The translations under genes and the position numbers were made by a program. A stretch of DNA of 64,000 nucleotides. Source: an uncultured Clostridium sp. (GTDB taxonomy: Bacteria; Bacillota; Clostridia; Lachnospirales; Lachnospiraceae). Below are positions 1,567 through 26,593 of this stretch, in pieces. The stretch covers positions 1 to 64,000 of the forward strand of contig CAMNRM010000013.1 of the NCBI GenBank assembly GCA_946553025.1. The letters are read 5' to 3'. Each line of letters begins with the position of its first letter. Positions within the stretch are counted from its first letter, which is position 1. The notes under the pieces were generated by a model. That model was not told where the DNA came from. It did not search any database and saw nothing but the letters and a program-made list of their open reading frames with translations.

Positions 1567-4500
1567 ATGAAAGTCAAGAAGATATTGTTTTCCTGCCTAT
1601 TGGGGATGCTGTTTTGCTGTCAGCCCCTTGTAGCCCATGCTCATGCGGTAGGTGATGGCGGAGGTGGAGCCAATACTGGGGGTAACATCTCAGGCGGCAC
1701 CACCAGCAAGCCAAACGCCGACTCCAACGAGAAGGATTTCAGGGTTGGGAGTGTAGTATTTTTAGCTGACTTTGGAAAGTTTTTCCCAGTTCCAGAGGCG
1801 GTATCGGTCAATAATGTAGATACCTGGGGCGTACAGAGGTCATACAGTTCTGTGGTGAATGCGCCGAGGATCAGTGAGACCGGGAGGTTTTACCTTGGTA
1901 CACCTTGTGATATACTTTGGTTCAATATGGCAAAAGGCTGTTATGAGTTAATTCCCTATACATCAGGCCGTATCGATACGCCGATCAAGGCGATAGACGG
2001 CCAGGAGATTACATTAAAGACCCAGGCAGGAGCCTTAGCCAACGGAGAGCCTTGGGCCAATGACGCAGTAAAGGTATTTGGTGACGCTGGGGGTAAGTTG
2101 GACGATCTGGTATCGGCTCTGTTATCGTTGCAGCCAGAAATCCAGCAGAAGATTATGACTAAGAGAGAAGGGGTAAACGTTGACGCCAGTGTCACACCGG
2201 AGGAGCAGGTTCCGGTAGCCCTGACTTATGATGAAATCCAGGAGCAGCTAAAGCATTATCTTGAGTGGTGGACAGCGGTTTATAATGACCTGGGTACAGT
2301 TGAGGCTGGCGTGGTCACGCCGGAGGAGCTTATGTCCCAATTTAATCAGGTGATAAGTGAGGCATCTCTGGTGAAAGAGGCGTATGCGGAGGATGGCCCA
2401 GGCTCGGCGGGGTCATCAGTAAATTGGCAGATATTCGCTGACTACCAGTATTTTACTCCCCAGATGGCAAAATATCCGGCGATAGGTATTGACTATATCG
2501 TATACAGAAGATATAGTGATGAGCCTTATTACAGGGCGATGAACTGGGAGGCGTTAAGGGCCGGATGGGGCGAGCGGGAGGCAGGCACGGGTAAGACATT
2601 TGCCCACGGATTTAATATGACTGGAAACAGGCTGTATGAGTCAAAGGGTACTGGTCAGACGTGTATGCGAAGCCCATCATTGATGTATACAAATTCAGTT
2701 ATCTACGGCAAAAACAATTTTGTATTGGGAGGTATGCCAGCAGCACCGAAGAGTGCCTATGCGGGGTATCAGTTCTTCGGGTATTACGGCGCATTGCTCT
2801 TTGGAAATCTTGATATTACCTATGTAGGCGACCCAGAGATACCACCGCCAGAGATAACTGAAAATGAGCCAGAAACCGAGACAGCCGATGATGTGGGTAC
2901 ATTTTACTTAATGGATTATGAGATGAATCATGTATTTGATTCTATTGCAGAGCATTATCAGGACAGCACATCTCACGACCATGCCCGTTTAAATTCAGGG
3001 ATATGGACAACAAATCCCAATGTTTTCAGTGATTGTGGTCATGGCTACAATGATTATGGTACAACGCAGTATTATGACATCAATTATGCGGAGAGTGACG
3101 GTTCAGGTAAATCAGTAGCTATGGATAATTCAGGCCCCACCAAGTTATTTCTCCATAATAATGGGGTAAAAGGTAATACATGGTGGTTGCGTGACCAGAT
3201 AAGGGCAGGCCAGACGGTAAGTTCTCAGGGGGTAAGCGATTATGTGATTGATTATGGCTTCAATCTATTGAGGAGGCACTTCGGTGACGCAAGAGCCTAT
3301 TCCAAGTTGATAGAGCAGGATGTTTCAAAAGAGTATCTTGAGAATACGCTGGGTATGTATGGGGATATCATGACAAAAGACGTCAAGAAGGCTACTCCAT
3401 TCCGTGACAGTATGGCGATAATCGGTGATATCACAGGCATAAAGGATAACCTGGGGTGGTCAGCAAAGTTCCAGGAAACTGGGGATACGACCAGGTATTA
3501 CACGGAGTCAGCATCTCATACTTATTATTGCGGAGATGATGATTGTGATGGCCATAGCTGTAGTTATAATAAGAGTATCAATGATGGAGGTATCAAAGCG
3601 TTTTCAGTACATGGGGGTACGCCATCGACCTACAATGTTCGTTTGATATCCATTGCCCACAAGTACCAGACGGCAGAGCTGCCCACTGGGTATGCGGCAC
3701 CGAAGGATATGGAGCCATTTGACTTCAGGCCAGCGACAGATGGTGAAGGTAGTAATGATGACTCTCAATATAGGGGTACGAACACCATAGATCCTGGCAT
3801 AACAGTCAGTTATGTTCCTGAAGTTCCCATGATAGCAGACGAGGTTCCCGGCCCGGAGCTAGAGCATAATCCAAAGAAAGTCATAACAATGGGTGAGGAG
3901 ACACGTAAGTCCAAACTCATTTTAATGACCTTGTATCGGGTGACCGGGGCTTCTAACCCAGTTAAGGGTGTTGTGTATTCAGATACGGCAGTTGGCGGTG
4001 ATGCTGGCCTTAAGAGCCAGACTGGTAATCGATTGGCGTTGACGGCTGGCGGAGATTTCACTGTTAAGGCAGATACGAATATGCAGGTTAATCTGTATGG
4101 GTACGCCTTAGACCTTATCGAACCAGGTGATGCCGGGTATGACGCAGTTACCTTGGGTAATGATGTGAAGGCAGGCTGGGGTAACAGCGGTTCCCGCAAT
4201 AAACTCATGGAGGCTTATCAGACCTGGGCAGGAGCCATGCTGAATCCTAAGAATTATCAGGCTGACTTTGAAATGACCATCGGCTCCAAGAAATATAACA
4301 GTTTTTCAGCGACAGTAGGCAGCTTCTCATCCAAGGCATCCCAGAGTACGGAGACAGGCCAGTATAATATAGCGTTTAAGCATGGTGACATAGTCCATGA
4401 CGCTGGGTATAATGCGTTTATCGCTCAGTTGGCTTCGGATTATGGCTGTTCTGTAGGTGAGGCGGAAGCCTTATTTGAGGCCAGTGAGATGAAGCAGGCA

Positions 4501-4941
4501 GTTATCAAAGCCATAGAGCATGATAATAGTGCCATCAATAAGTCGGCTCCTGCCAAATATGTAGGCGATACGTTTAACGAGCCGGATTTATCATCCATGC
4601 TGGGTAATTCCAGTCATTGGTATGATGAAGAGGTCAGGGTATTCGTGATCCGGCGCTTTATGACCCCAGCGGCGAGAGTTTTGAATGTCATAGCCCAGGA
4701 TAAAATGGATATTGGTACTTCTATGGAGAGTTTGGGTAGCGATATGGTTGGTAGCTTCAACCTGAATGTATGGTTTGATGGAAATTGCTACACCAGAGCC
4801 GTAGAGGAGTATCGTCCGGGTGCGAGTGGTGACAATAAATTCTCAGCTTTGGCAGCAGGTGACCTGGTAGTATCGGGTATCTATGTAGATGGGGCTGATT
4901 TTAATATCACAAACGCAACAACAGCGACAGGTAAGCATTGA
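1567..4941 (+). CDS. Large secreted protein (1124 aa), unknown function
   Basis: An N-terminal signal peptide (MKVKKILFSCLLGMLF..., cleavage likely after AHA near residue 27) is followed by a Gly-rich stretch and a long soluble ectodomain with no evident second membrane segment. A Cys/His/Asp cluster near residues 652-668 (YCGDDDCDGHSC) could bind metal or form disulfides. Another acidic linker (ENEPETETADD) lies near 435. The ribosome binding site GGAGGTGAGGGT precedes the ATG. With the upstream lipoprotein it forms an exported pair. The size suggests an extracellular component of the element's transfer or attachment apparatus, which is inference. The family was not recognised. Confidence 0.7.
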   Translation: MKVKKILFSCLLGMLFCCQPLVAHAHAVGDGGGGANTGGNISGGTTSKPNADSNEKDFRVGSVVFLADFGKFFPVPEAVSVNNVDTWGVQRSYSSVVNAPRISETGRFYLGTPCDILWFNMAKGCYELIPYTSGRIDTPIKAIDGQEITLKTQAGALANGEPWANDAVKVFGDAGGKLDDLVSALLSLQPEIQQKIMTKREGVNVDASVTPEEQVPVALTYDEIQEQLKHYLEWWTAVYNDLGTVEAGVVTPEELMSQFNQVISEASLVKEAYAEDGPGSAGSSVNWQIFADYQYFTPQMAKYPAIGIDYIVYRRYSDEPYYRAMNWEALRAGWGEREAGTGKTFAHGFNMTGNRLYESKGTGQTCMRSPSLMYTNSVIYGKNNFVLGGMPAAPKSAYAGYQFFGYYGALLFGNLDITYVGDPEIPPPEITENEPETETADDVGTFYLMDYEMNHVFDSIAEHYQDSTSHDHARLNSGIWTTNPNVFSDCGHGYNDYGTTQYYDINYAESDGSGKSVAMDNSGPTKLFLHNNGVKGNTWWLRDQIRAGQTVSSQGVSDYVIDYGFNLLRRHFGDARAYSKLIEQDVSKEYLENTLGMYGDIMTKDVKKATPFRDSMAIIGDITGIKDNLGWSAKFQETGDTTRYYTESASHTYYCGDDDCDGHSCSYNKSINDGGIKAFSVHGGTPSTYNVRLISIAHKYQTAELPTGYAAPKDMEPFDFRPATDGEGSNDDSQYRGTNTIDPGITVSYVPEVPMIADEVPGPELEHNPKKVITMGEETRKSKLILMTLYRVTGASNPVKGVVYSDTAVGGDAGLKSQTGNRLALTAGGDFTVKADTNMQVNLYGYALDLIEPGDAGYDAVTLGNDVKAGWGNSGSRNKLMEAYQTWAGAMLNPKNYQADFEMTIGSKKYNSFSATVGSFSSKASQSTETGQYNIAFKHGDIVHDAGYNAFIAQLASDYGCSVGEAEALFEASEMKQAVIKAIEHDNSAINKSAPAKYVGDTFNEPDLSSMLGNSSHWYDEEVRVFVIRRFMTPAARVLNVIAQDKMDIGTSMESLGSDMVGSFNLNVWFDGNCYTRAVEEYRPGASGDNKFSALAAGDLVVSGIYVDGADFNITNATTATGKH

Positions 4942-9681: not shown

Positions 9682-9718
9682 TCAAGTCTGGAAATGATGG
9701 CCTGATTGCTCTTTTTTA
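9670..9718 (+). terminator. Probable terminator of the XRE gene
   Basis: AAAAAAGAG (9670-9678) pairs with CTCTTTTTT (9709-9717), with TCA/TGA pairing inside. The loop is long, so strength is uncertain. Confidence 0.45.
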
Positions 9719-10110
9719 TTATGGCCAGGGGTGACTTTCATGTCATAGTAAATTATTTTCGCAAGTTAAATTTCTTATTCTGAATGTTTCTTCAAAAAGG
9801 TAATATTTTCTGCTGTTTTCAAGCCCCGAATGGGTATGAACTCCCAAGGGCATCTGTTTATTTCCCAATATGGATTTTAAAAACTGCCAATAGAGGCCAT
9901 CTAAACCCTCAATAAATCCGTCATCAGTTGTAGCTGTGGATTTCTGAGGTATCTTGGGCATTGCTTTGCAGTATGTAGTGGCGCGGAGTTGGGGGTATTA
10001 AGTGAGATGAAAGAAAAAGGGGTCAAACCTGGATATTTTTATTGAGAGTTTTCCGATTATCTGTGGTATCTTCGCAGGAGTAAAAGTTGGGAGGTATTGC
10101 TTCAGGAAAC
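9719..10110. other. Non-coding stretch before the repeat arrays
   Basis: I see no convincing gene. A 72-codon minus-strand frame at 9743-9961 lacks a ribosome binding site. The right part grades into the 20-bp repeats that follow. Confidence 0.4.
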
Positions 10111-10743
10111 GGAAAGGCTTTGAGTGGCTCTGCTTTGTGTCCACTCTGGCAGCTTTGATATAAGTATAGCGGCTCGGATAAGAGTCATGTTACTTGCTTC
10201 TAATTTTTGTATCGCAGTCCTGAGTATAGAGGCTTTGAAACCAGTTTATCTGCTTTGCTTTTTCGTTGGTAATCCCGTGTTGATTTTGGCGGCTTAGAAG
10301 GGAGTTGTTCTTCTTGCCGTTTATTTTATTGTTATAGTTTTGAGCAGATCGGCATTGAAATGAGTTGTGTTATTTCGTATTCTTGCAGGCATCGTTGTTA
10401 TGAGTATTGTGGCTTAGTAGGGGGCTTCTCTGCTGACTGCCAACTTTAGAATCGTGGTTTTGAATAGAGTAATCTCATCATGAGTTATTATGTGTTGTAC
10501 ACTCTTAGGTTTGCTTGTAATGAGTCGCTCCATTGACTGCCGATTTTAGAATCGTGGTTTTAAGTAAAACAACTGTGGTACGAGTTATTGTGCTTCGTGT
10601 TCACTTAGGTATGACTGCTGCGATTATTGTGGCTTTCATGGGAGTTGTTCTATCGGCTGCTTAGTTTAGATTTATAGCCTTAAGTGCAGCAGATGCGTGG
10701 GGAGATTTTCTGCTTGTTTCTTACCCAGGTATCGTAAGTTAAG
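10111..10743. repeat. Degenerate 60-bp tandem array built of 20-bp subunits
   Basis: About ten units with period exactly 60 bp. Unit starts are near 10171, 10231, 10291, 10351, 10411, 10471, 10571, 10631 and 10691, typically beginning GGCTTNGAA and followed by GAGTTNTTC. Each unit divides into three 20-bp subunits (GGCTT..., TGCTT..., ATCGT... types). Many carry TGAGT at positions 11-15. Between 10531 and 10570 exactly one 20-bp subunit is missing, showing that 20 bp is the basic unit. No frame stays open throughout, so it is non-coding as it stands. Confidence 0.8.
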
Positions 10744-10809
10744 TTTTTCAATGCCTTATAAAATGGCTCAGTTTAACATACGTTTTTGAGTTGGGTATAT
10801 TTCTTTGGT

Positions 10810-11235
10810 ATTTTCTGCATTTTCTGTTGGCTTCACTGCGGTTACTGTATTTATCACTGCATTTTAAAGCAGTTTCACTGCCGCAATTGTATATTCACCG
10901 CATTTTCTGCTGGCTTCACTTCACGAATTGTAATATCTGCTTCAGTATCAGAAAGATTAACCACAGTATTTGCTATATTAACATTAAGGCAGAGAAGTTT
11001 CCCCTCAAAGGCTGTAGTTTTCACTGACAGTATTCGTAGATTCACTTCATATTCTGGCAGCTTAACCTCATTAGTTATCAGTTTCACTGGCAGAGTTAGT
11101 GATCTCACCTCAAGAGAAGAAAAACTAACCTCATCTACCGGCAGTCTAATTTCATTTATTATAAATCCCACCTTTAATATTTATATCTTAACTTCAGTAG
11201 TATGAAATTTCACTGACTGAATTTGTGTTTTTTCA
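10810..11235. repeat. Degenerate 21-bp tandem array (about 20 units)
   Basis: Units begin close to NTTCACTTCA and tend to end in AG, with period 21 bp and only one 20-bp unit (near 10873). Good examples start at 11019 (TTTCACTGACAG), 11082 (TTTCACTGGCAG) and 11208 (TTTCACTGACTG). On the minus strand, 10875-11171 stays open and reads as 7-residue repeats of the form xxEVxLx (TNEVKLP, EYEVNLR, IREVKPA). The repeat continues upstream past an in-frame TAA, so translation is doubtful. Confidence 0.8.
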
Positions 11236-11315
11236 TGGCTTTGTTTGGGGACTGATCTCGATTATATACATTAGTACGAAAATTGTATATTTCTTTGCAG
11301 AGGAGGTTGTTTTAT

Positions 11316-12341
11316 ATGAGTATTCAGAAGAACAAAGAATTGTGTAATGCGACAGAGTTTGCGGCTAAGTGCGGTGTATCCTTGCATACCATATTGGACT
11401 GGGTAAGCAAGGGTAAGATTACCCCGGAGGTTGCAGCAGGCGGGAGGTCATACTTTGGAGAGAGTTCTTATGCCCAGGTACAGGCTTTACTTTTAAAGAG
11501 AAAGAATCCAGTTGCCTATCTTGCTGTTCTTGTAGCTAATGATGAGGATGAGCTTGCTGAGAAGAGGGCAGCTTGGGAAAAGTTGCAGAAAGAGGTTTTG
11601 CCAAGGGGTGAGCAGATAACAGGTCTTAAAGAGTTCCTGCGTACTTTGGATAATGCACAGCCGGTTGTTGATGACGCAATATCCAAGAAACTCCGTAGTG
11701 ACCTTGCAAGACAAGCGTCTGATGCTTTCCAGAGCAGTGTTTTTGAGCGTATCAAGAATATCTATAATACTTGTGAGAAGGCTATGGAACTGCCGACAAA
11801 GTTCTTTATTTCTATGATATTAGGTGAGGATACCGATGAGGGAGAGTTAAACTTGTACAATAGTTTTTCTTTGGGGTCATCTTTTTCTCCAGCTAGACAG
11901 GCAGAAAGCTGTAAAGAGGAGTTTAGGAAGATTATGACCAGGTATGGCTACTTTAATGCCATAAAGTTAAGAGGCTTGAGCATGGGTGATGTATTTAGGT
12001 CAGGGGTAAGTCTGTTGGCAGCTGAGAATATGCCCATTGATTTTAACCAGCCAGCAGCCAGAAGTTTATACAATACGCAGGCCAGTCAGGTTCGGGGTAA
12101 AGCTAAGAAATCCTTTGTGGCCCAGATAGCCAGCAGGGGTTATTTCACAGTGATTGAGGCAGTTGGTTCTTTAACCAAGGAGCAAGAGGATTTTATCACT
12201 AATGCCATTCTTGACGGCGATTATACGTCCATTTACTTCAGTAGTCGTAATATTGTGAGTAATGAGTCCTTGCGTGATATTGGTTCTGCTGTGAGGGTTG
12301 CTGATATGAAGTTTATCGTAGCAGATGAAGCAAACGAGTAG
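11316..12341 (+). CDS. MerR-like helix-turn-helix protein with long C-terminal domain
   Basis: Start at ATG 11316 (MSIQKNKELC) after AGAGGAGG, giving 341 residues. Residues 8-60 form a MerR/excisionase-type winged helix (NATEFAAKCGVSLHTILDWVSKGKITPE, then GGRSYFGESSYAQVQALL). The remaining 280 residues are mostly helical and unrecognised. It sits between the 21-bp array and three HNH genes. A smaller protein with the same HTH type precedes another HNH gene at 22471. It may bind the arrays or regulate or guide the HNH proteins; that is inference. Confidence 0.7.
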   Translation: MSIQKNKELCNATEFAAKCGVSLHTILDWVSKGKITPEVAAGGRSYFGESSYAQVQALLLKRKNPVAYLAVLVANDEDELAEKRAAWEKLQKEVLPRGEQITGLKEFLRTLDNAQPVVDDAISKKLRSDLARQASDAFQSSVFERIKNIYNTCEKAMELPTKFFISMILGEDTDEGELNLYNSFSLGSSFSPARQAESCKEEFRKIMTRYGYFNAIKLRGLSMGDVFRSGVSLLAAENMPIDFNQPAARSLYNTQASQVRGKAKKSFVAQIASRGYFTVIEAVGSLTKEQEDFITNAILDGDYTSIYFSSRNIVSNESLRDIGSAVRVADMKFIVADEANE

Positions 12342-12390
12342 TGTATACTCCAATATTATCTTGAAGAGAAGGGCAAAGGAGGCTGGTTTT

Positions 12391-13161
12391 ATGGTGAAGA
12401 GTCATGAGGATTATCCCACGGGTATTTCAAAGGTGATTTTGTCACCAACAAGTATGTTCCCGGAGGGTAAGAATTTCTTTTATGTTGATACAGAAGATTT
12501 AGACCTGGTGTACAGGTTAAAGAATTGTAAGTTTTATGGTGATTGGAATACCCATGCTTATCCGGCTGGAGCCAGGTTGTATCGCGCAATTATAGAGAGG
12601 CATACAAGGCTTGTTCCTGATATCGTTGACCATATTAACGGAGTGAGTATTGATAATACTTCAAGAAATCTTAAGTCGGTAACAAAATTACAGAATCGCA
12701 GGAATAGGCCGTGGAGAGGTTATAAGCTCTGTCATGGCAGTGGGTTTGTGTTCTGTAATACGTTATCAGAAGACAGTCTTGAGGCATCATATTGCAAGAC
12801 TTTTGCACGAGAAGATGAAGTAGTCCTCAGCAGGATGGAGTTTGAAAGTAGGTATTGGACTGATTATGGGTACGACTTTTTATCAGATAGAAGAGGAGAG
12901 CTTGATATTATCAGTATGGAATATGAGGGTAAGCTCTCGCATGAAGAAGCTACCCTTATGCACGTAATGCGGAGAGCTAAAAACAATGCCTGGTATGTTT
13001 TGCGATACAATCTTTCTGGGTATTTTAAGGAACACGGTATACCGGAGCCAGGGTACTGCTTGAATGAGTCTAATAGAATGTGTGATCTTGAGAAGGGTAT
13101 TCTATTATGTCCTTTGGCTAAGGAGGGGAATTTTTATGGTGATAGAGTATCATGTCTTTGA
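12391..13161 (+). CDS. HNH endonuclease-like protein, paralog 1
   Basis: Start at ATG 12391 after AAAGGAGG; 256 residues. N-terminal third: ISKVILSPTSMFPEGKNFFYVD. An HNH core follows near residues 85-115 (DHINGVSIDNTSRNLKSV ... NRRNR), with the general-base His in DHINGV and the Asn-rich second half of HNH_3 homing-type nucleases. The C-terminal half (FLSDRRGELDII, HVMRRAKNNAWYVLRYNL) is shared with paralogs 2-4 and is specific to this set. Unlike them it reads past LLCPLA into the next gene, adding about 14 residues, so its original stop appears lost. Overlaps paralog 2 by 26 bp. Confidence 0.75.
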   Translation: MVKSHEDYPTGISKVILSPTSMFPEGKNFFYVDTEDLDLVYRLKNCKFYGDWNTHAYPAGARLYRAIIERHTRLVPDIVDHINGVSIDNTSRNLKSVTKLQNRRNRPWRGYKLCHGSGFVFCNTLSEDSLEASYCKTFAREDEVVLSRMEFESRYWTDYGYDFLSDRRGELDIISMEYEGKLSHEEATLMHVMRRAKNNAWYVLRYNLSGYFKEHGIPEPGYCLNESNRMCDLEKGILLCPLAKEGNFYGDRVSCL

Positions 13162-13873
13162 CACGGGTATCGCAAAAGTCATTTTAAAGCCGACCGAGAA
13201 GTTTCCAGAGGGCAAGAATTACTTTTATGTCGATGCAGATGATTTACCTTTGGTGATGCAGACTGATAATTGCGAGTTGACTGGTAGTTGGGATAAATGT
13301 GCCTACCCCGGTTCACAGTTGTATCGTAAGATAGTTAGAAAACATATAGGGCAAAAGCCAGAGTATGTCGATCATGCTAACGGAGTAGGTATCGATAATA
13401 CCTCAAGAAATCTTAATTCTGTTACAGCATGTGAAAATTCCAGAAACAGAGTGTATAGAGGATATTGGATTTCGGGTGATAATTTTGCTTTTGAGGGGTT
13501 AGTACGTTATTATAGTAAGTTTGGTGCGTATACTCGCAGCCGTGTCATAACCTATCCATATGAGCATGAGGCAGCCTTTCACAGAAAGGAATTTGAGGAT
13601 GATTATTACTCAAGCTATAACTATAATTTTTTCTTGGACAGAAGAGGAGAGTTAGACATTGTCGAGTTGGAGTACAGTGGACAGATTTCACGTGAAGAAG
13701 CCACCTTTATGCATGTAATGCGGAAGGCTAAAGATAATGCTTGGTATGTATGGCGTTACCATTTATTCGAGTATTTCAAGAAGTACGATATCCCGATACC
13801 AGGGTATAAATTAAATGAGAAGAATAGAATGGTTGACGTGGAAACCGGGGCCATTTTGTGTCCCTTTGGGTAA
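13136..13873 (+). CDS. HNH endonuclease-like protein, paralog 2
   Basis: Begins at ATG 13136 after AAGGAGGGG (MVIEYHVFDTGIAKVILKP), 245 residues. Same architecture as its neighbours. The HNH core reads DHANGVGIDNTSRNLNSV, where Ile after the catalytic His is Ala; the His and Asn residues are kept. C-terminal block LDRRGELDIVELEYSGQIS and HVMRKAKDNAWYVWRYHL. Ends LCPFG just before paralog 3. Confidence 0.75.
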   Translation: MVIEYHVFDTGIAKVILKPTEKFPEGKNYFYVDADDLPLVMQTDNCELTGSWDKCAYPGSQLYRKIVRKHIGQKPEYVDHANGVGIDNTSRNLNSVTACENSRNRVYRGYWISGDNFAFEGLVRYYSKFGAYTRSRVITYPYEHEAAFHRKEFEDDYYSSYNYNFFLDRRGELDIVELEYSGQISREEATFMHVMRKAKDNAWYVWRYHLFEYFKKYDIPIPGYKLNEKNRMVDVETGAILCPFG

Positions 13874-13888
13874 AGAGGGGGCGGTTTT

Positions 13889-14644
13889 ATGGTGATAGGT
13901 TATCATCGTTTTGATACTGGAATCGCAAAAGTAATTTTAAAGCCAACAGAAAAGTTTCCAGATGGTAAGAATTACTTTTATGTTGATGCAGACGATTTAC
14001 ATTTGGTCATGGAAAGGGAGTCTTGTAGTTTGTCAGGTAATTGGGACAAGTGTGCTTATGTTGAACCAAGGTTGCATCGTAGGATAGCTGAAAAGCATCA
14101 TATGCTCGATGGGTGCTATCCTATTGACCATATCAATGGTGTGGGTATTGATAATACATCAAGAAATCTCAGACCTGTATCGCCAGTCGATAATGGGAGA
14201 AATACGGTACAAAGGGGGTATCGTGTTAGTGGCAAGGACAGATTTTCTTTTCGGGAACCAGAGCTAGAGCCTTATTTTCTCTATGGGAGAACACGTTATC
14301 GCAAGGTGACGCATCGTTCTTTGTTGTATGAGAGGGAGGATTTGGTGGCATATCACAGAAAGGTTTGGGAGGATAAGTGGTGGAAAATCAGGTATGATTT
14401 CTTGTTAGACAGGCGGGGAGACCTTGATATTATTGAGTTGGAGTACAGTGGACAAATTTCAAATGAAGAAGCTATTTTTAGGCATGTAATGCGAAAGGCT
14501 AAGAATAATGCCTGGTATGTGTTGCGGTATCACTTATATGGGTATTTTGATAAGTATGGTATAGACATACCAGAGTATGATTTAAATGAGGAGCGCAGAA
14601 TGGTTGATGTGAAAACTGGAAACATCTTGTGTCCTTTGGGGTGA
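13889..14644 (+). CDS. HNH endonuclease-like protein, paralog 3
   Basis: 251 residues from ATG 13889 after AGAGGGGGCGG. N-terminus MVIGYHRFDTGIAKVILKP matches paralog 2 closely. HNH core DHINGVGIDNTSRNLRPV ... NGRNT. C-terminal block LDRRGDLDIIELEYSGQIS ... HVMRKAKNNAWYVLRYHL. Paralogs 2 and 3 share more with each other than with 1, implying stepwise tandem duplication. No gene follows for about 1 kb, where the third repeat array lies. Confidence 0.75.
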   Translation: MVIGYHRFDTGIAKVILKPTEKFPDGKNYFYVDADDLHLVMERESCSLSGNWDKCAYVEPRLHRRIAEKHHMLDGCYPIDHINGVGIDNTSRNLRPVSPVDNGRNTVQRGYRVSGKDRFSFREPELEPYFLYGRTRYRKVTHRSLLYEREDLVAYHRKVWEDKWWKIRYDFLLDRRGDLDIIELEYSGQISNEEAIFRHVMRKAKNNAWYVLRYHLYGYFDKYGIDIPEYDLNEERRMVDVKTGNILCPLG

Positions 14645-15041
14645 GCGAGTGGTGAAGTTTTTATCGGTTTTGAATGGGGATATTTTCTTTGAGATGAAAT
14701 TTGCAGATACGGTCAGTTTGATTGAAATATATTTTTTACAAAGATTTTTGATGGTTACGCCTGATTGAAAAATGGGAGCTGGTTTCAGGCAATCTCCGTT
14801 ATGGGGGCTGAAAAGTGCCACTGTAGCGTGGTTTTTGGGCGGTTTTGAAAAAATAGAAAAGGGGTCAGCGATTGAAAACGGGATTTTTTTCGGTATTTCC
14901 CACGAATTGATATGGGGTAATGGTTTGTGCATACATAGGGCCAGTTGAATGTGTTTATCTTCTTTAGTTGTTTCGCTGCATGGAGATACAGACAGTGGTT
15001 GTACGAGGGGGTATGAGCTGCAGGATATGGAAAAGCGTCTT
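14645..15041. other. Non-coding stretch between HNH genes and third array
   Basis: AT-rich with no frame that has a ribosome binding site. I see no clear terminator or repeat here; TTTTTGGGCGG and TTTTTCGG-type words give weak hairpins only. Confidence 0.4.
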
Positions 15042-15480
15042 GATTTAAGCGGCGGTGTTACGAGTGGGGAGGCACTGTTGTGGATTGCTCTTGGGTATGG
15101 TAAGTCTGTTAAAGGAGCATTAGCTGTTTAAAAGTGTCGTGACTTAAGCAGCAGTGTCATGAGTCCTTCTTTTCTACGCTCATTCTGGCAGCTGTGTGAG
15201 GAGTTTCATAGTGTCATGATAGCCATGAGCGTTGTGACTTAAGCAGCAGTGTCATGAGTCCTTCTTTTCCACGCTCATTCTGGTAGCTGTGTAAGGAGTT
15301 TCATGGTGGCATGACAGACGTAAGCGTCATGATTTAAGCAGCGGTGTTGTGAGTCTTTCTCTAGTATGCCCACCGGATCAGGAGTATGGAAAGTTAGGTG
15401 ACGGTAGTACAAGTTTTTCTTTTATGCTTACAGAAAAGCTGTCTGGAATACACCTGGGTATTGGCGGCAGGAGTGTTTCT
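15042..15480. repeat. Third array, 95-99 bp direct repeats related to the 60-bp array
   Basis: Units starting GAYTTAAGC(A/G)GC lie at 15042, 15141, 15236 and 15331, with spacings 99, 95 and 95. The 15141 and 15236 copies are nearly identical for about 75 bp; the others are degenerate. Weaker matches continue near 15392 and 15457. The head (TTAAGCAGCAGTG then TGAGTCCTTCT) resembles the unit at 10681-10710. A 95-bp period is not a multiple of three, which argues against coding. Confidence 0.75.
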
Positions 15481-16413: not shown

Positions 16414-16998
16414 ATGAATAAGAAGTGTGTTGCACTGACGGATGAGCAGTACCGCAGGAGTATTGAACTGCTCCGTCATGGTTTTATGCTGGATGGCAGG
16501 CTGGTAAAACCTAACGAGAGGATAGCGGCGGCTGAGGTGGTGCAGGCATCCCTGGGGTTACGGTTAGGTGATGTGCTAGATCTCAGGATGTCGTCATTTG
16601 TCAGGGATGGTGATCGGTGGCGTCTGGACATTATGGAGCAGAAGACGGGAAAGGAGAGGACGTTTACTGTACCAGTAGAGGTATATACATTCATCCAAGG
16701 GTATGCCTTATCGATGGGTATCCGTCCGGAGGCGAAGTTGTTTGCGGTTTCTGAGAGGCAGGTGGAGCGTCATCTGAACAAGGTTTTTCAGAAAATGGAG
16801 TTACCATTACGACAGTTTGGGAGCCATTCATATCGTAAGCTGTTCGCCACACGGGTCTATGTGGATAATGAATATAACATCGAGTTGGTGAGAGTCCTGC
16901 TCCAGCACTCAAGCGTTCAGGTCACGCAGAGGTATCTCAATATCAGCCAGAAGCTGGTTGAGAGTGCTTTAGCAAAGACAGCCGTTTATGTAGTCTAG
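16414..16998 (+). CDS. Small tyrosine recombinase (catalytic domain only)
   Basis: 194 residues with the full active site: Arg50 (GLRLGDVLDL), a lysine in QKTGKERTF (77-80), His138-x-x-Arg141 (HSYRKLF), His165 (LLQHSSVQ) and nucleophile Tyr174 (QRYLNIS). It lacks the N-terminal SAM-like core-binding domain of phage integrases, so it resembles short invertases of FimB/FimE size. Ribosome binding site GGAGGAGGTG. First gene of a close-packed block running to 22390. It may act on local sites (inversion or dimer resolution), since a large serine recombinase at 24854 looks like the element integrase. Confidence 0.85.
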   Translation: MNKKCVALTDEQYRRSIELLRHGFMLDGRLVKPNERIAAAEVVQASLGLRLGDVLDLRMSSFVRDGDRWRLDIMEQKTGKERTFTVPVEVYTFIQGYALSMGIRPEAKLFAVSERQVERHLNKVFQKMELPLRQFGSHSYRKLFATRVYVDNEYNIELVRVLLQHSSVQVTQRYLNISQKLVESALAKTAVYVV

Positions 16999-21511: not shown

Positions 21512-21523
21512 GTGTTTGAAATT

Positions 21524-21566
21524 GGCATCTCGACCGATTATAAGCAGATATTTTGGCCGAGATGCC
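21524..21566 (+). promoter_or_regulatory. Hairpin before the ADP-ribose glycohydrolase gene
   Basis: GGCATCTCG (21524-21532) and CGAGATGCC (21558-21566) form a 9-bp perfect stem with a 25-nt loop. No T run follows, so it is not a standard terminator. It lies about 18 bp before the AAGGAGA site, where it could protect or modulate the downstream message. Confidence 0.5.
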
Positions 21567-21595
21567 ATGATAAGTTCGAGTTGAAGGAGAATGAG

Positions 21596-22390
21596 ATGAG
21601 TAGTTTAGTAGCGGTATTTGAAGATACAGTATCAAAGTGCAGAGGAAATCAGGTATTGGCAGACAGTATCCAGAAATCTTTGAGGGAACAGAAGATCATC
21701 CTTGAGGATGATGTATTGGATTTTACGTCTGATTCTGCCAGTCAAGGTAAGGTGCGGGTAACGAAGAACCGTACAATGGAGGCAGCGAAAGGGTATCCCA
21801 ATAAGAAGGTCTGTGTATTAAATTTTGCGTCAGCGTGTAATCCAGGCGGCGGGGTAACCAAGGGAGCCCATGCCCAGGAGGAGTGTCTGTGCCGCATCAG
21901 TACTTTATATCCGTGTCTAAATGTCAGTAAGAACTGGGACAGGTTTTATAAACCTCACCGGCAGTTAGACTCGCTGTATAATTCAGATATGATTTACACT
22001 CCAGGGGTAACTGTGTTTAAGTCAGATACAGCCAGCCCAGTTATGCTGGATGAGAGGGACTGGTTCCATGTGGATGTGGTGACCTGTGCTGCTCCCAATA
22101 TTTCAAGATGCAAAGGCAGGCCCAAGGGGTCTGATGTCCAGAAGATATTCGAGAAGCGGTTTGAGAGAGTGGTTCTGGCGGCGTTAGGATATTGCTGTGA
22201 GGTATTGGTGTTAGGGGCTTTTGGCTGTGGAGCGTTTGGGAACAGCCCCAGCATAGTCGCCGCCGCAGCTTACAAAGTGATGGAAAAGTACAGGTACTGC
22301 TTTGAAACAGTTGAGTTTGCGGTTTACTGTAAACCTGGCGAGGAGAATAACTATCGGGTATTCAGGGCGGGGCTTGGGCGTATGCTTTAA
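21596..22390 (+). CDS. TIGR02452-type poly(ADP-ribose) glycohydrolase-like macrodomain protein
   Basis: Start at ATG 21596 (MSSLVAVFEDTV) with AAGGAGA 5 bp upstream; an earlier GTG at 21512 would read through the hairpin and has no site. About 264 residues. The signature LNFASACNPGGGVTKGAHAQEECLCR contains the bacterial PARG motif GGG-x(6-8)-QEE with the paired acidic residues that attack the ADP-ribose bond. A late glycine-rich loop (LGAFGCGAFGN) binds the diphosphate. Such proteins reverse ADP-ribosylation and often counter toxins. Last gene of the coupled block. Confidence 0.85.
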   Translation: MSSLVAVFEDTVSKCRGNQVLADSIQKSLREQKIILEDDVLDFTSDSASQGKVRVTKNRTMEAAKGYPNKKVCVLNFASACNPGGGVTKGAHAQEECLCRISTLYPCLNVSKNWDRFYKPHRQLDSLYNSDMIYTPGVTVFKSDTASPVMLDERDWFHVDVVTCAAPNISRCKGRPKGSDVQKIFEKRFERVVLAALGYCCEVLVLGAFGCGAFGNSPSIVAAAAYKVMEKYRYCFETVEFAVYCKPGEENNYRVFRAGLGRML

Positions 22391-22470
22391 TGATATAACT
22401 TATTCAGGAATAATTAAGTATCACTAATATGAAAATATATCTCTTATCAAAAATAGGAGGTATATTTTTT

Positions 22471-22656
22471 ATGCTTAAAAAAGAGTACAATAGTTTTTAT
22501 TCTACACAGGAATTTGCAAATGCTATCGGAGTTCACAAGAATACTGTGATACGGTGGGACAACGAAGGAAGATTGAAACCACATCACAAGGACAGGCATG
22601 GTTACAGGTACTATTCCCAAGAGCAGGTGACTGAGTTTTTGAGAGGAGGTATGTGA
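22471..22656 (+). CDS. MerR-type helix-turn-helix protein (61 aa)
   Basis: ATG 22471 follows AATAGGAGG. The whole protein is one winged HTH: FYSTQEFANAIGVHKNTVIRWDN, then EGRLKP and YRYYSQEQVTEFL. It resembles MerR N-domains and excisionase-like or IS607-type HTHs. The last codons overlap the HNH gene that follows. Compare the HTH at the start of the 11316 protein, also next to HNH genes. Confidence 0.8.
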   Translation: MLKKEYNSFYSTQEFANAIGVHKNTVIRWDNEGRLKPHHKDRHGYRYYSQEQVTEFLRGGM

Positions 22657-22658
22657 CT

Positions 22659-23489
22659 ATGGCGATTGAGAGGATTGAGGAGTATAGACAGCAAAATGGT
22701 GTGGATATTTTGAAAGTGCATTTAACGCCTAATAAAGCAGCACCATTAGGGAAGAATTATTTTTATACTTCGGCTGATGCAAGAGAAGTAGTTTATAAAT
22801 ATAGATGGAGAATTCATAATGCTGGTTCTAAAACTAAATCTTTAAATGTTACAGCAGAGGAGATGCTTTATGAACAAGGTAAATGTATAGGAGCTATTAC
22901 TCACCTTTTTCATCGGGAGATGTATTTCTTTTATAATAGTAAATATACTGATTATATAGATCATATAAACTCAGTTGATATAGATAATGCAGACAGTAAT
23001 TTAAATAGTGTGTCTGGAGCACAGAATATATACAATAAGTTTCACAAAGGTTATAGTACAACAAAAGCTACTAGATCCAAAAGAAATTATGTTTTTATTC
23101 CATGTGCTTTTTATAATAACAAAGCATATACACCTTTTGGGTCTAGTGTTAAAGTTAATGAAGACGAAGTGTGTGTTTTGCAAAATATAGTTGAGCGAGT
23201 CTGGTTAAAAGAAAGACTAAAAAATGATTATTATATGTTTGACTTTAAAAGATATAGGAGAAACTCCGAAGATATTCTTGATTTAGAGCGTACTGGCCAG
23301 ATTTCAGAGGATGAGGCAGTTTATAGACATATATTAAGATATGCATATAACCCCTGGTACATATTAAGGTTTGGTTTAGAAGGGTATTGTAAGGAGAATC
23401 ATATTCCTATTCCAGCGTATTCATTGGATTCGGATGGTTTTATGGTTCATCCCATCACGGGGGTAAGGCTTTGCCCGTTTATAAAATAA
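22659..23489 (+). CDS. HNH endonuclease-like protein, paralog 4 (diverged)
   Basis: ATG 22659 (MAIERIEEYR) lies 8 bp after GAGGAGG; a GTG at 22653 is less likely. 276 residues. HNH core DHINSVDIDNADSNLNSV, NIYNK; the C-terminal block ILDLERTGQISEDEAVYRHILRYAYNPWYILRFGLEGY matches paralogs 1-3. Base composition is clearly AT-richer than neighbours and GGGTA words are few, suggesting separate, more recent arrival. Confidence 0.75.
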   Translation: MAIERIEEYRQQNGVDILKVHLTPNKAAPLGKNYFYTSADAREVVYKYRWRIHNAGSKTKSLNVTAEEMLYEQGKCIGAITHLFHREMYFFYNSKYTDYIDHINSVDIDNADSNLNSVSGAQNIYNKFHKGYSTTKATRSKRNYVFIPCAFYNNKAYTPFGSSVKVNEDEVCVLQNIVERVWLKERLKNDYYMFDFKRYRRNSEDILDLERTGQISEDEAVYRHILRYAYNPWYILRFGLEGYCKENHIPIPAYSLDSDGFMVHPITGVRLCPFIK

Positions 23490-24853: not shown

Positions 24854-26593
24854 GTGGAAGTTACTTATGGCAATGAGGGTAAGAAATGTTATTTATATCT
24901 GAGAGTGTCAACAGCCATGCAGGTAGATGGGTATAGTCTTGAGGCCCAGGAGGAGTGGCTTAGGAAGCGTGCCGATTATGAGGGTATGATTATTGCTGGC
25001 ATATATTGTGATGGGGGTAAGTCTGGTAAGAATATTGAAGGACGACCGGAATTTATGAGGATGCTTTCAGATATCGAGAGCAAGAAGGATAATGTGAGTT
25101 TTGTTCTAGTGTTCAAGCTGTCGAGGTTTGGCCGTAATGCAGCGGATGTGTTGGTTTCCTTGCGTAAGATGCAGAAGTATGGTGTGAATCTTATCTGTGT
25201 TCATGAGTCCATTGACTCATCAAAGGATTCGGGCAAGCTGATGATCACAATCTTGTCAGCGGTTGCGGAGATTGAGCGTGATAATATTCTGGTGCAGACT
25301 ATGGAAGGTCGAAAGCAGAAAGCCAGAGATGGCCGATGGAATGGGGGCTTTGCACCATATGGTTATAGACTTAATAACGGAAAGCTGGAGGTGGCAGAAG
25401 ACGAAAAAGGTTTAATTCAGGAGATATTCAGGCTGTATGTAGAAGATGGCCTTGGTGTGAATGGTGTTGCCAGAGTATTGAACGAGAAAGGGGTAACGAA
25501 AAAAGTACGCCAGAATGGTACTCAAGAGGCAATCAATATCTCCTTTGTTCGAGGTGTTCTTGAAAATCCAGTATATGATGGTAAGATTGCATATGGCAGG
25601 AGAAAGCATCAGCTTAAAGAAGGATCAGATTACGAATATGAAACAGTAAAGCCAGAAGAGTATATTTTGGTGGATGGAGTACATGAGGCATTGATCGAAC
25701 ATAACGTTTGGATCGAGGCTTGCAGGCTCCGTAAGGAAACAGGTGGCTGTAATAAGCGAAAGTACAATTTTGGCAGGCGGCATTTGCTTTCAGGTATTAT
25801 CAAATGTCCAGTGTGCGGCAACGGTATGTACGGAAATGTAAATCGCAAGAAATACAAGGGTACTGATGAGATTTACAGTGAATATTACTATTATCAATGT
25901 AAGCATAGGAGAAGTGCCCTGGGGGTAAGAAAATGTGAATATAATTTTCAGTGGCGGCAGAATGTAATCAATAAGGCTGTCGAGACCGTCATTTATAGAC
26001 TGATACATGAACAGAAGTTTATTGATACAATAAAGAGTAAAATCGGTACTGAGATAGATACTTCAGAAATTGATAAGGAATTGGATAATTATAGAAAACA
26101 GTTGCAGAAGGCGCAGCACAACAAGGACAGGTATATAGAAAAACAGAATGCTTTAGATTTGGATGATCGCCATTATGATCGCAAAATGCAGGATTATGAA
26201 GAGCAGATTGAGGGTTTTTATGAGAAGATAGAGGGTATTGAAATTGCGATAGCAGAGCTTGAACAGCGTAAAATAAGTATTAGAAGGCAGTCTATTACTG
26301 TCGATAATATTTATAAGTACCTGATATATTTTGACACGGCCTATGCAGACCTTTCAGATGATGAAAAAAGGAGTATTTTGGAAAATTTGATAGAAGCGGT
26401 ACATATCTATCCGGAGCAGCAGCCCAATGGTCAGATATTAAAACGTATTGATTTTAAACTCCCTATATTTTATAATGGAGAAGAGGCTGGGGCTTTGTGT
26501 TGGGACAAAGATGGACACGTGGAAACGGTGTGTCTTTTGAGAAATCGAAAACCTGATACAAAAGTTAATTTAAGGGTTTACAAGCAGGTTTAA
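24854..26593 (+). CDS. Large serine recombinase (element integrase)
   Basis: 579 residues from a GTG start after AAAGGAG. N-terminal resolvase domain (about 10-155) with catalytic Ser19 and Arg17 in LYLRVSTAMQ, and FKLSRFGRN later. Recombinase domain follows at about 170-300 (GGFAPYGYRL ... INISFVRGVLENPVY). A zinc ribbon starts CPVCGNGMYG near 318. Then comes a coiled coil (about 420-500) and a C-terminal tail. This is the architecture of TndX/TnpX-like integrases of mobilizable and conjugative elements in Clostridia. Expected to catalyse att-site integration and excision. As the last element gene, its own 3' end probably abuts the attachment site. Confidence 0.92.
   Translation: MEVTYGNEGKKCYLYLRVSTAMQVDGYSLEAQEEWLRKRADYEGMIIAGIYCDGGKSGKNIEGRPEFMRMLSDIESKKDNVSFVLVFKLSRFGRNAADVLVSLRKMQKYGVNLICVHESIDSSKDSGKLMITILSAVAEIERDNILVQTMEGRKQKARDGRWNGGFAPYGYRLNNGKLEVAEDEKGLIQEIFRLYVEDGLGVNGVARVLNEKGVTKKVRQNGTQEAINISFVRGVLENPVYDGKIAYGRRKHQLKEGSDYEYETVKPEEYILVDGVHEALIEHNVWIEACRLRKETGGCNKRKYNFGRRHLLSGIIKCPVCGNGMYGNVNRKKYKGTDEIYSEYYYYQCKHRRSALGVRKCEYNFQWRQNVINKAVETVIYRLIHEQKFIDTIKSKIGTEIDTSEIDKELDNYRKQLQKAQHNKDRYIEKQNALDLDDRHYDRKMQDYEEQIEGFYEKIEGIEIAIAELEQRKISIRRQSITVDNIYKYLIYFDTAYADLSDDEKRSILENLIEAVHIYPEQQPNGQILKRIDFKLPIFYNGEEAGALCWDKDGHVETVCLLRNRKPDTKVNLRVYKQV

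Follow-up and report, generated by a model that had tools for sequence, protein, structure and literature searches.

An operon of helix-turn-helix and HNH nuclease genes between phased repeat arrays in a putative clostridial mobile element

On direct repeats, the winged helix-turn-helix (HTH) protein BldC, which has 68 amino acids (aa), assembles into filaments in head-to-tail order (PMC5859096), and on its long site each turn of the helix is occupied by one protomer (PMC11963761). Cooperative filaments are also formed by Xis, which acts in phage excision, and RdfS forms filaments that bind without an apparent consensus and function in excision of an integrative and conjugative element (PMC11963761). 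Direct repeats are likewise bound in partition systems, where ParR of pSK41 binds 20-bp repeats and parC usually consists of direct repeats, some of them complex and imperfect, located upstream of the operon (PMC9426499). The free-standing HNH genes of T4 occupy intergenic regions, and the way in which single-strand nicks promote recombination is described as an outstanding question (PMC2988022). Here we describe a locus from an uncultured Clostridium sp. (contig CAMNRM010000013.1) in which an intact operon with the gene order HTH-HNH-HNH-HNH (11316-14644) lies between the left and right arms of an array of short, helically phased repeats. The window that we analysed is the whole stretch of 64,000 nt, which opens at the start of the contig, and about 1-26.6 kb of it seem to be filled by a mobile element that contains the operon.

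Left and right arrays form one site family

Arrays were detected by autocorrelation against 200 dinucleotide shuffles, whose best z scores had a 95th percentile of 3.4-3.6. The left stretch (10111-10790) gave z scores of 11.4, 9.1 and 6.7 at lags 120, 60 and 180, the middle stretch (10800-11235) gave 8.0, 7.6 and 6.4 at lags 21, 42 and 63, and the right stretch (15000-15480) gave 11.4 at lag 95. The control stretch at 9690-10110 peaked at 2.7 and that at 14645-15000, which has no percentile of its own, at 2.3, and the HNH1 gene, also taken as a control, reached 3.7, slightly over its own percentile of 3.5. A repeat scan covered 464,000 bases, comprising the window and 20 stretches of 20 kb from the same genome, and 1,312 of its 9,154 intervals of 300 bp were mostly non-coding. 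The top 16 places among these mostly non-coding intervals were taken by the three arrays (Table 1) and one GC-rich 30-bp repeat elsewhere in the genome. The next-ranked repeat, with an 18-bp unit (L036, 9.1), scores higher than the left array does in its weaker stretches. The GC-rich tandem repeat (L040 12840-13190, G000 contig 10) appears by eye to be a Gly/Pro-rich coding repeat.

Table 1. Features of the locus and of the surrounding element, with positions in the window. E, expectation value.
Feature	Position	Strand	Description
Left array	10120..10739	+	31 contiguous degenerate 20-bp units, A-B-C in 60-bp superunits; extra A-C pair at 10520-10559
Middle array	10822..11219		21-bp units (about 19), interrupted by a single 20-bp step between 10864 and 10884; core close to TTCACYTCA
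HTH gene	11316..12341	+	341 aa; N-terminal MerR/excisionase-type winged HTH
HNH1	12391..13161	+	HNH_3 18.3 bits, under the cut-off of 24.8; PHROG HNH endonuclease, E 6e-7
HNH2	13136..13873	+	HNH_3 17.2 bits, under the cut-off; PHROG HNH endonuclease, E 3e-7
HNH3	13889..14644	+	HNH_3 14.9 bits, under the cut-off; PHROG HNH endonuclease, E 6e-8
Right array	15040..15480	+	95-bp blocks with the A-B-C superunit of the left array
HTH2	22468..22656	+	62-aa MerR-like HTH gene in the same element, without arrays; 30% identical to the HTH of 11316 across 30 aa
HNH4	22653..23489	+	Overlaps the end of the HTH2 gene; PHROG HNH endonuclease, E 3.7e-5; no Pfam match at E 1
1124-aa protein gene	1567-4941
Tyrosine recombinase gene	16414-16998		Short (194 aa)
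PARG-domain protein gene	21512-22390		Pfam E 1.7e-35
Serine recombinase gene	24854-26593		Large

The units of the left array have diverged strongly, with a mean identity of 51% for the 60-bp units and about 34% at 20-bp steps, and they keep a strict register. When models were trained on alternate blocks, all 27 units in the nine A-B-C blocks (four of the 31 units lie outside these blocks) scored best at offset 0 among 20 offsets, and the extra 40-bp A-C pair leaves the 20-bp register unbroken. In a leave-one-out test of the middle array, which covered the 14 units beginning at 10926, offset 0 was the best of 21 offsets for 13 of them. Drift to such divergence is expected to bring insertions and deletions (indels), and the strong divergence of the left array without indels therefore argues that the spacing is conserved. 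The fixed spacing of 20 and 21 bp, near two helical turns, fits protein binding to duplex DNA. No half-unit period was seen, as lags 10, 30, 50 and 70 in the left array and lags 10, 11, 31, 32, 52 and 53 in the middle array were near chance. Even without a link to the HNH genes, 31 degenerate 20-bp units in unchanged register are an unusually clear example of kept spacing with drifting sequence. The units are contiguous and degenerate and have no spacers, unlike the near-identical repeats and unrelated spacers of clustered regularly interspaced short palindromic repeats.

The left and right arrays are one family of sites, on the same strand and in the same A-B-C order. A position-specific scoring matrix (PSSM) made from the left array only found seven matches scoring at least 8 on the plus strand of the right array and none on the minus strand; these matches are not independent, because the right array repeats itself at 95 bp. 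The corresponding counts were 0.4 on average and 3 at most in 500 Markov sequences, and 5 at most with 500 column-shuffled models. A covariance model, again built from the left array only, gave five matches at E of 5 or less outside that array, all of them in the right array, with rough E-values of 0.0012, 0.0032, 0.025, 0.63 and 4.1. The A-B-C superunits of the two arms are 44% identical in phase, compared with 26-35% at 11 other offsets. Within the 95-bp blocks, we read the register of the right array as 20, 20, 20, 20, 15. The middle array adjoins the HTH gene on its upstream side. Its model is unspecific, with dozens of matches scoring at least 9 across the window, and was not used further.

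These results agree with much of what an earlier note on this DNA had described. Its three arrays, with 60/20-bp, 21-bp and 95-bp units, are borne out by the comparison with shuffles, and the kinship that it saw between the left and right arrays is upheld by the PSSM, the covariance model and the in-phase identity. The layout that it gave for the HTH gene and the three HNH genes is that of Table 1. New relative to the note are the strict 20-bp phase of the left array, the distinct site of the middle array and a second HTH-HNH pair of the element that lacks arrays.

Proteins of the operon and of a second HTH-HNH pair

The HTH protein matches the Pfam family MerR_1 with 23.4 bits, above the cut-off of 21.6, and it also matches the MerR/excisionase families of PHROG. 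As with BldC, Xis and RdfS, a winged HTH of the MerR/Xis type is encoded next to contiguous, helically phased direct repeats of weak consensus. The locus differs from those systems in the length of the protein, in the presence of tens of sites, and in that binding is something we infer here. An N-terminal MerR HTH is also present in IS607-type transposases, which carry a serine resolvase domain as well, whereas the C-terminus of the protein studied here has no match to a resolvase profile. We rejected an IS607-like resolvase in this C-terminus, as it did not match a profile of five serine recombinases. The IS607-type model of NCBIfam gave 15.3 bits, against a cut-off of 110.

HNH2 and HNH3 are 64% identical, and HNH4, from a second HTH-HNH pair in the element, is 34-38% identical to HNH1-3 and retains the DH..N..N pattern. 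Residues D80, H81, N93 and N102 do not vary among the four proteins. The best solved match is I-HmuI (1u3e), over the HNH core, with an E of 0.027 that is weak taken alone. The four invariant residues align to 1u3e, so that HNH1-4 carry the equivalents of D74/H75, N87 and N96, which we take to be the catalytic residues of I-HmuI. Like I-HmuI and T4 Mob, these proteins have an HNH core and, as far as seen, are encoded by free-standing genes rather than within introns. Unlike those enzymes, they have a C-terminal domain of about 90 residues for which relatives were not found; moreover, HNH1-3 are paralogues encoded in tandem, their operon also includes an HTH gene, and an array lies on both sides. 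A tethered module of the NUMOD type, as homing enzymes carry, was not detected with Pfam in HNH1-4. The divergence of HNH2 from HNH3 is 0.29 at nonsynonymous sites (dN) and 1.37 at synonymous sites (dS), values that point to purifying selection on this pair; for the other five pairs, dS is larger or saturated. A structure model of HNH3 is of moderate quality, with a mean predicted local distance difference test (pLDDT) score of 66 and values of 76-91 over residues 181-250. The assigned start of HNH1 has AAAGGAGG upstream, and an alternative in-frame ATG at 12325 is possible. A purine-rich stretch resembling a ribosome binding site precedes each gene of the operon, and that of HNH3 is the weakest.

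As an HTH gene with an HNH gene is seen twice in the element, the second time within 22429-23489, the combination is a recurring unit here. HTH2 scores 20.6 bits against NUMOD1 (cut-off 22.8), which is the only NUMOD1 signal found and resides in a separate gene. With its MerR-type fold, its match to mad1 of PADLOC and this near-cut-off NUMOD1 score, HTH2 looks as if the DNA-binding module of a homing enzyme had been split off as a gene of its own.

A proposed role for the arrays and its alternatives

We tentatively favour a reading in which the phased arms are a cooperative protein-binding array, likely bound by the winged HTH protein of the operon, with HNH nickases of the homing type acting at or near it. 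We favour this mechanism because head-to-tail coating of direct repeats is known from winged HTH proteins of the MerR/Xis fold. On this view, a single array of 20-bp DNA sites in phase with the helix has the left and right arrays as its two arms, and a protein could assemble along it cooperatively and head to tail. The likeliest binder would be the operon's own MerR/Xis-like protein; it may in addition occupy the 21-bp array that precedes its gene and thereby regulate the operon. HNH1-3 would be homing nickases of the I-HmuI/Mob type, and their nick or cut would fall at the occupied array or close to it. Recombinational repair might then re-amplify the array, or it might copy the locus into DNA that bears an array but lacks the locus. 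What the data establish is the anatomy, with the arrays and their register, the homology of the two arms, the intact operon, the retained catalytic residues and purifying selection, whereas DNA binding, the identity of the binder, nicking and the genetic outcome belong to the proposal. If the array is bound by the winged HTH protein and cut by the HNH proteins, filament-forming proteins of this fold, which act in excision and development, would be linked to homing nucleases, and the locus would provide a setting in which to test how recombination is promoted by single-strand nicks. More doubtful is a specific version of this idea, namely a dedicated form of array-guided homing in which the MerR/Xis-like protein would coat a two-armed array (31 units on the left, perhaps 20 on the right, with another array at the promoter of its gene) and recruit diverged HNH nickases to move, copy or re-amplify the locus; our searches found no described counterpart of such a system.

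A number of observations weigh against the favoured reading. Arrays are absent at the second HTH-HNH pair by a survey of stops and composition, by the PSSM scan and by the repeat scan, which weakens the claim that arrays belong to these nucleases as such. Unless it has a unique cut site, a homing insertion would not usually leave both arms intact, as they are here. Neither an empty site nor a relative, with or without the cassette, was found in the genomes and contigs searched. The searches likewise brought up no close homologues, whether of the arrays or of the HTH and HNH sequences, in which co-occurrence might be seen; together with the second pair, this counts against one obligate system. 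The period of the array corresponds to two helical turns, with no half-period of one turn (about 10 bp), whereas BldC places its protomers one turn apart. At 341 aa the HTH protein is not of the small BldC type, its structure model is unusable (pLDDT 43), and its C-terminal part of about 280 residues is unexplained, having no convincing relatives and only weak matches (Med30, E 0.19; PADLOC, E 0.019). In the HNH3 model, the HNH core is the weakest part, with pLDDT values of 40-48. The pooled consensus is loose, since a single 20-bp model gives 7 of the 31 left units scores below 0. The best single score in the right array, 13.2, falls within the control maxima of 13.6 and 14.4, and the left-only PSSM has 13 matches scoring at least 9 (best 11.6) elsewhere in the window. 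The motif of the middle array differs from that of the left and right arrays, and one motif common to all three was rejected, as the left model has no match scoring at least 9 on either strand of the middle array.

Almost as likely is an explanation that treats the array as serving the maintenance or transfer of the element, like a centromere, an iteron or oriT, with the HTH protein or a protein encoded elsewhere as its binder. The HNH genes would then be free-standing homing genes that have no relation to the array and have multiplied within it or next to it. The 20-bp direct repeats beside an operon for a DNA-binding protein resemble the ParR-parC centromere of pSK41, the intergenic HNH genes of T4 set a precedent for such lodgers, and the second HTH-HNH pair, which has no array, also speaks for this explanation. 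The locus differs from ParR-parC in having many more units and in encoding nucleases. No ParM, ribbon-helix-helix protein or replication family was found among 25 gene products of the window scanned with Pfam, which are part of its open reading frames (ORFs), and this argument is weak, as the left part of the element lies beyond the contig. Known iteron sites have far fewer repeats than these arrays. The same holds for the known partition sites as described in PMC9426499, for example that of pCW3 with four repeats. A further alternative, which we regard as unlikely, is functionless drift, with the arrays being old satellite-like tandem duplications or, for the middle array, a decayed repetitive gene. 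The low identity of the units (from about 34% at 20-bp steps to 51% for the 60-bp units), the seven left units that score below 0, and the stop-free runs of 134 and 101 codons, on both strands, in a middle array of 21-bp period are in keeping with such drift. The register of 27 of 27 tested left units, kept despite divergence that should have brought indels, argues against it. A coding origin for the left and right arrays was rejected, since stops occur in every one of six frames (10-19 per frame on the left and 6-12 on the right) and steps of 20, 40 and 95 bp are not multiples of three; the 40-bp A-C pair would by itself break a reading frame in the left array. The middle array also has its one 20-bp step, and because it lacks a codon-phase signal (permutation P 0.76) and the two ORFs tried have no Pfam match, it is unlikely to be a decayed gene. 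A decayed and unrelated gene, which the earlier note had named as one finding that would overturn its proposal, is thus excluded as coding sequence on the left and right and is only unlikely in the middle.

Transcription of the arrays into a repetitive non-coding RNA seems very unlikely. The left array is strand-asymmetric in composition (T 0.39, C 0.15), and one of six middle stretches (11091-11219, plus strand) folds with a z of -1.9, with 7 of 200 shuffles as good, as might be expected of an RNA. The other five middle stretches gave z scores of -1.1 to +1.1 and 12 left and right stretches gave -1.0 to +1.0 against shuffles, Rfam gave no match at E 1, and duplex DNA is suggested by a fixed spacing close to two turns of the helix; a structured RNA element is therefore not supported, as the arrays fold no better than shuffles apart from this one weak stretch. 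Least likely of all is a defence (anti-invader) role for the locus, with foreign DNA cut by the HNH proteins and the arrays serving as decoy, memory or self-marking site. The mad1 profile of PADLOC matches HTH2 at E 2.8e-15 and the HTH protein of the operon at E 0.0018. Because the MAD1 model of NCBIfam scores far under its cut-off on HTH2 (15.5 bits against 80), the mad1 match looks like a generic MerR fold. No other MADS component appeared among nine proteins scanned in PADLOC, HNH1-3 have no PADLOC match at E 0.1, and the only profile matched by HNH4 is that of a homing endonuclease (E 0.003). The anti-invader idea of the earlier note accordingly finds no support beyond generic HTH matches. 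Its broader interpretation is supported in part: the arrays are real, the left and right ones are non-coding and share family and orientation, they bracket an intact operon, and their spacing fits protein binding. That they make up one functional system is not supported, as the second pair has no arrays and the searches found no close homologue in which co-occurrence might be seen.

Searches for relatives and the surrounding element

Relatives were sought in draws of genomes from the same genus, family, order and phylum, which overlap. The HNH profile matched only the source genome among 299 genomes of the family and 11 of the genus. It matched three of 392 genomes of the order, two of them through weak HNH-core matches that by eye are ordinary phage-type HNH genes, and five of 398 genomes of the phylum, four of them again through weak HNH-core matches. 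The HTH protein matched one of 250 family genomes and its C-terminal part one of 186 order genomes, in both cases the source genome. At E 0.05, the array model R1 had matches in 16 of 200 genomes, the source genome and 15 with a single weak match each (best 0.0054), where about 10 are expected by chance on rough E-values. In the source genome, a lone weak match to an array model lies outside the element (G000:C9:63028-63080, E 0.006), about the level of chance. Pattern scans of genome and viral contigs, including the search with the C-terminal HNH block that the earlier note had proposed, brought no confirmed relative. No match was obtained when HNH3 and the HTH protein were compared by tblastn with phages and plasmids, two other proteins of the element by tblastn with plasmids, or positions 1-25000 by megablast with plasmids. 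None of the titles and abstract starts returned by searches of open-licence PubMed Central papers describes the layout, a result that argues only weakly for its novelty. Three tandem serine recombinase genes lie near a phage-type HNH gene in a different genome of the order (L018 3309-6773).

The element encodes a large serine recombinase, and the genes beyond it are, by eye, chromosomal and ordinary in look. Promoter-like sites numbered 11 against 16.8 in shuffles and terminator-like sites 12 against 5.4, and these counts were not used as evidence. The 1124-aa protein has an N-terminus that by eye resembles a signal sequence; it has no Pfam match, and the only match among 250 genomes is in the source genome. 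To the right of the right array, the same element also encodes the short tyrosine recombinase listed in Table 1. A further gene of the mobile element encodes a protein with a poly(ADP-ribose) glycohydrolase (PARG) domain of the microbial type.

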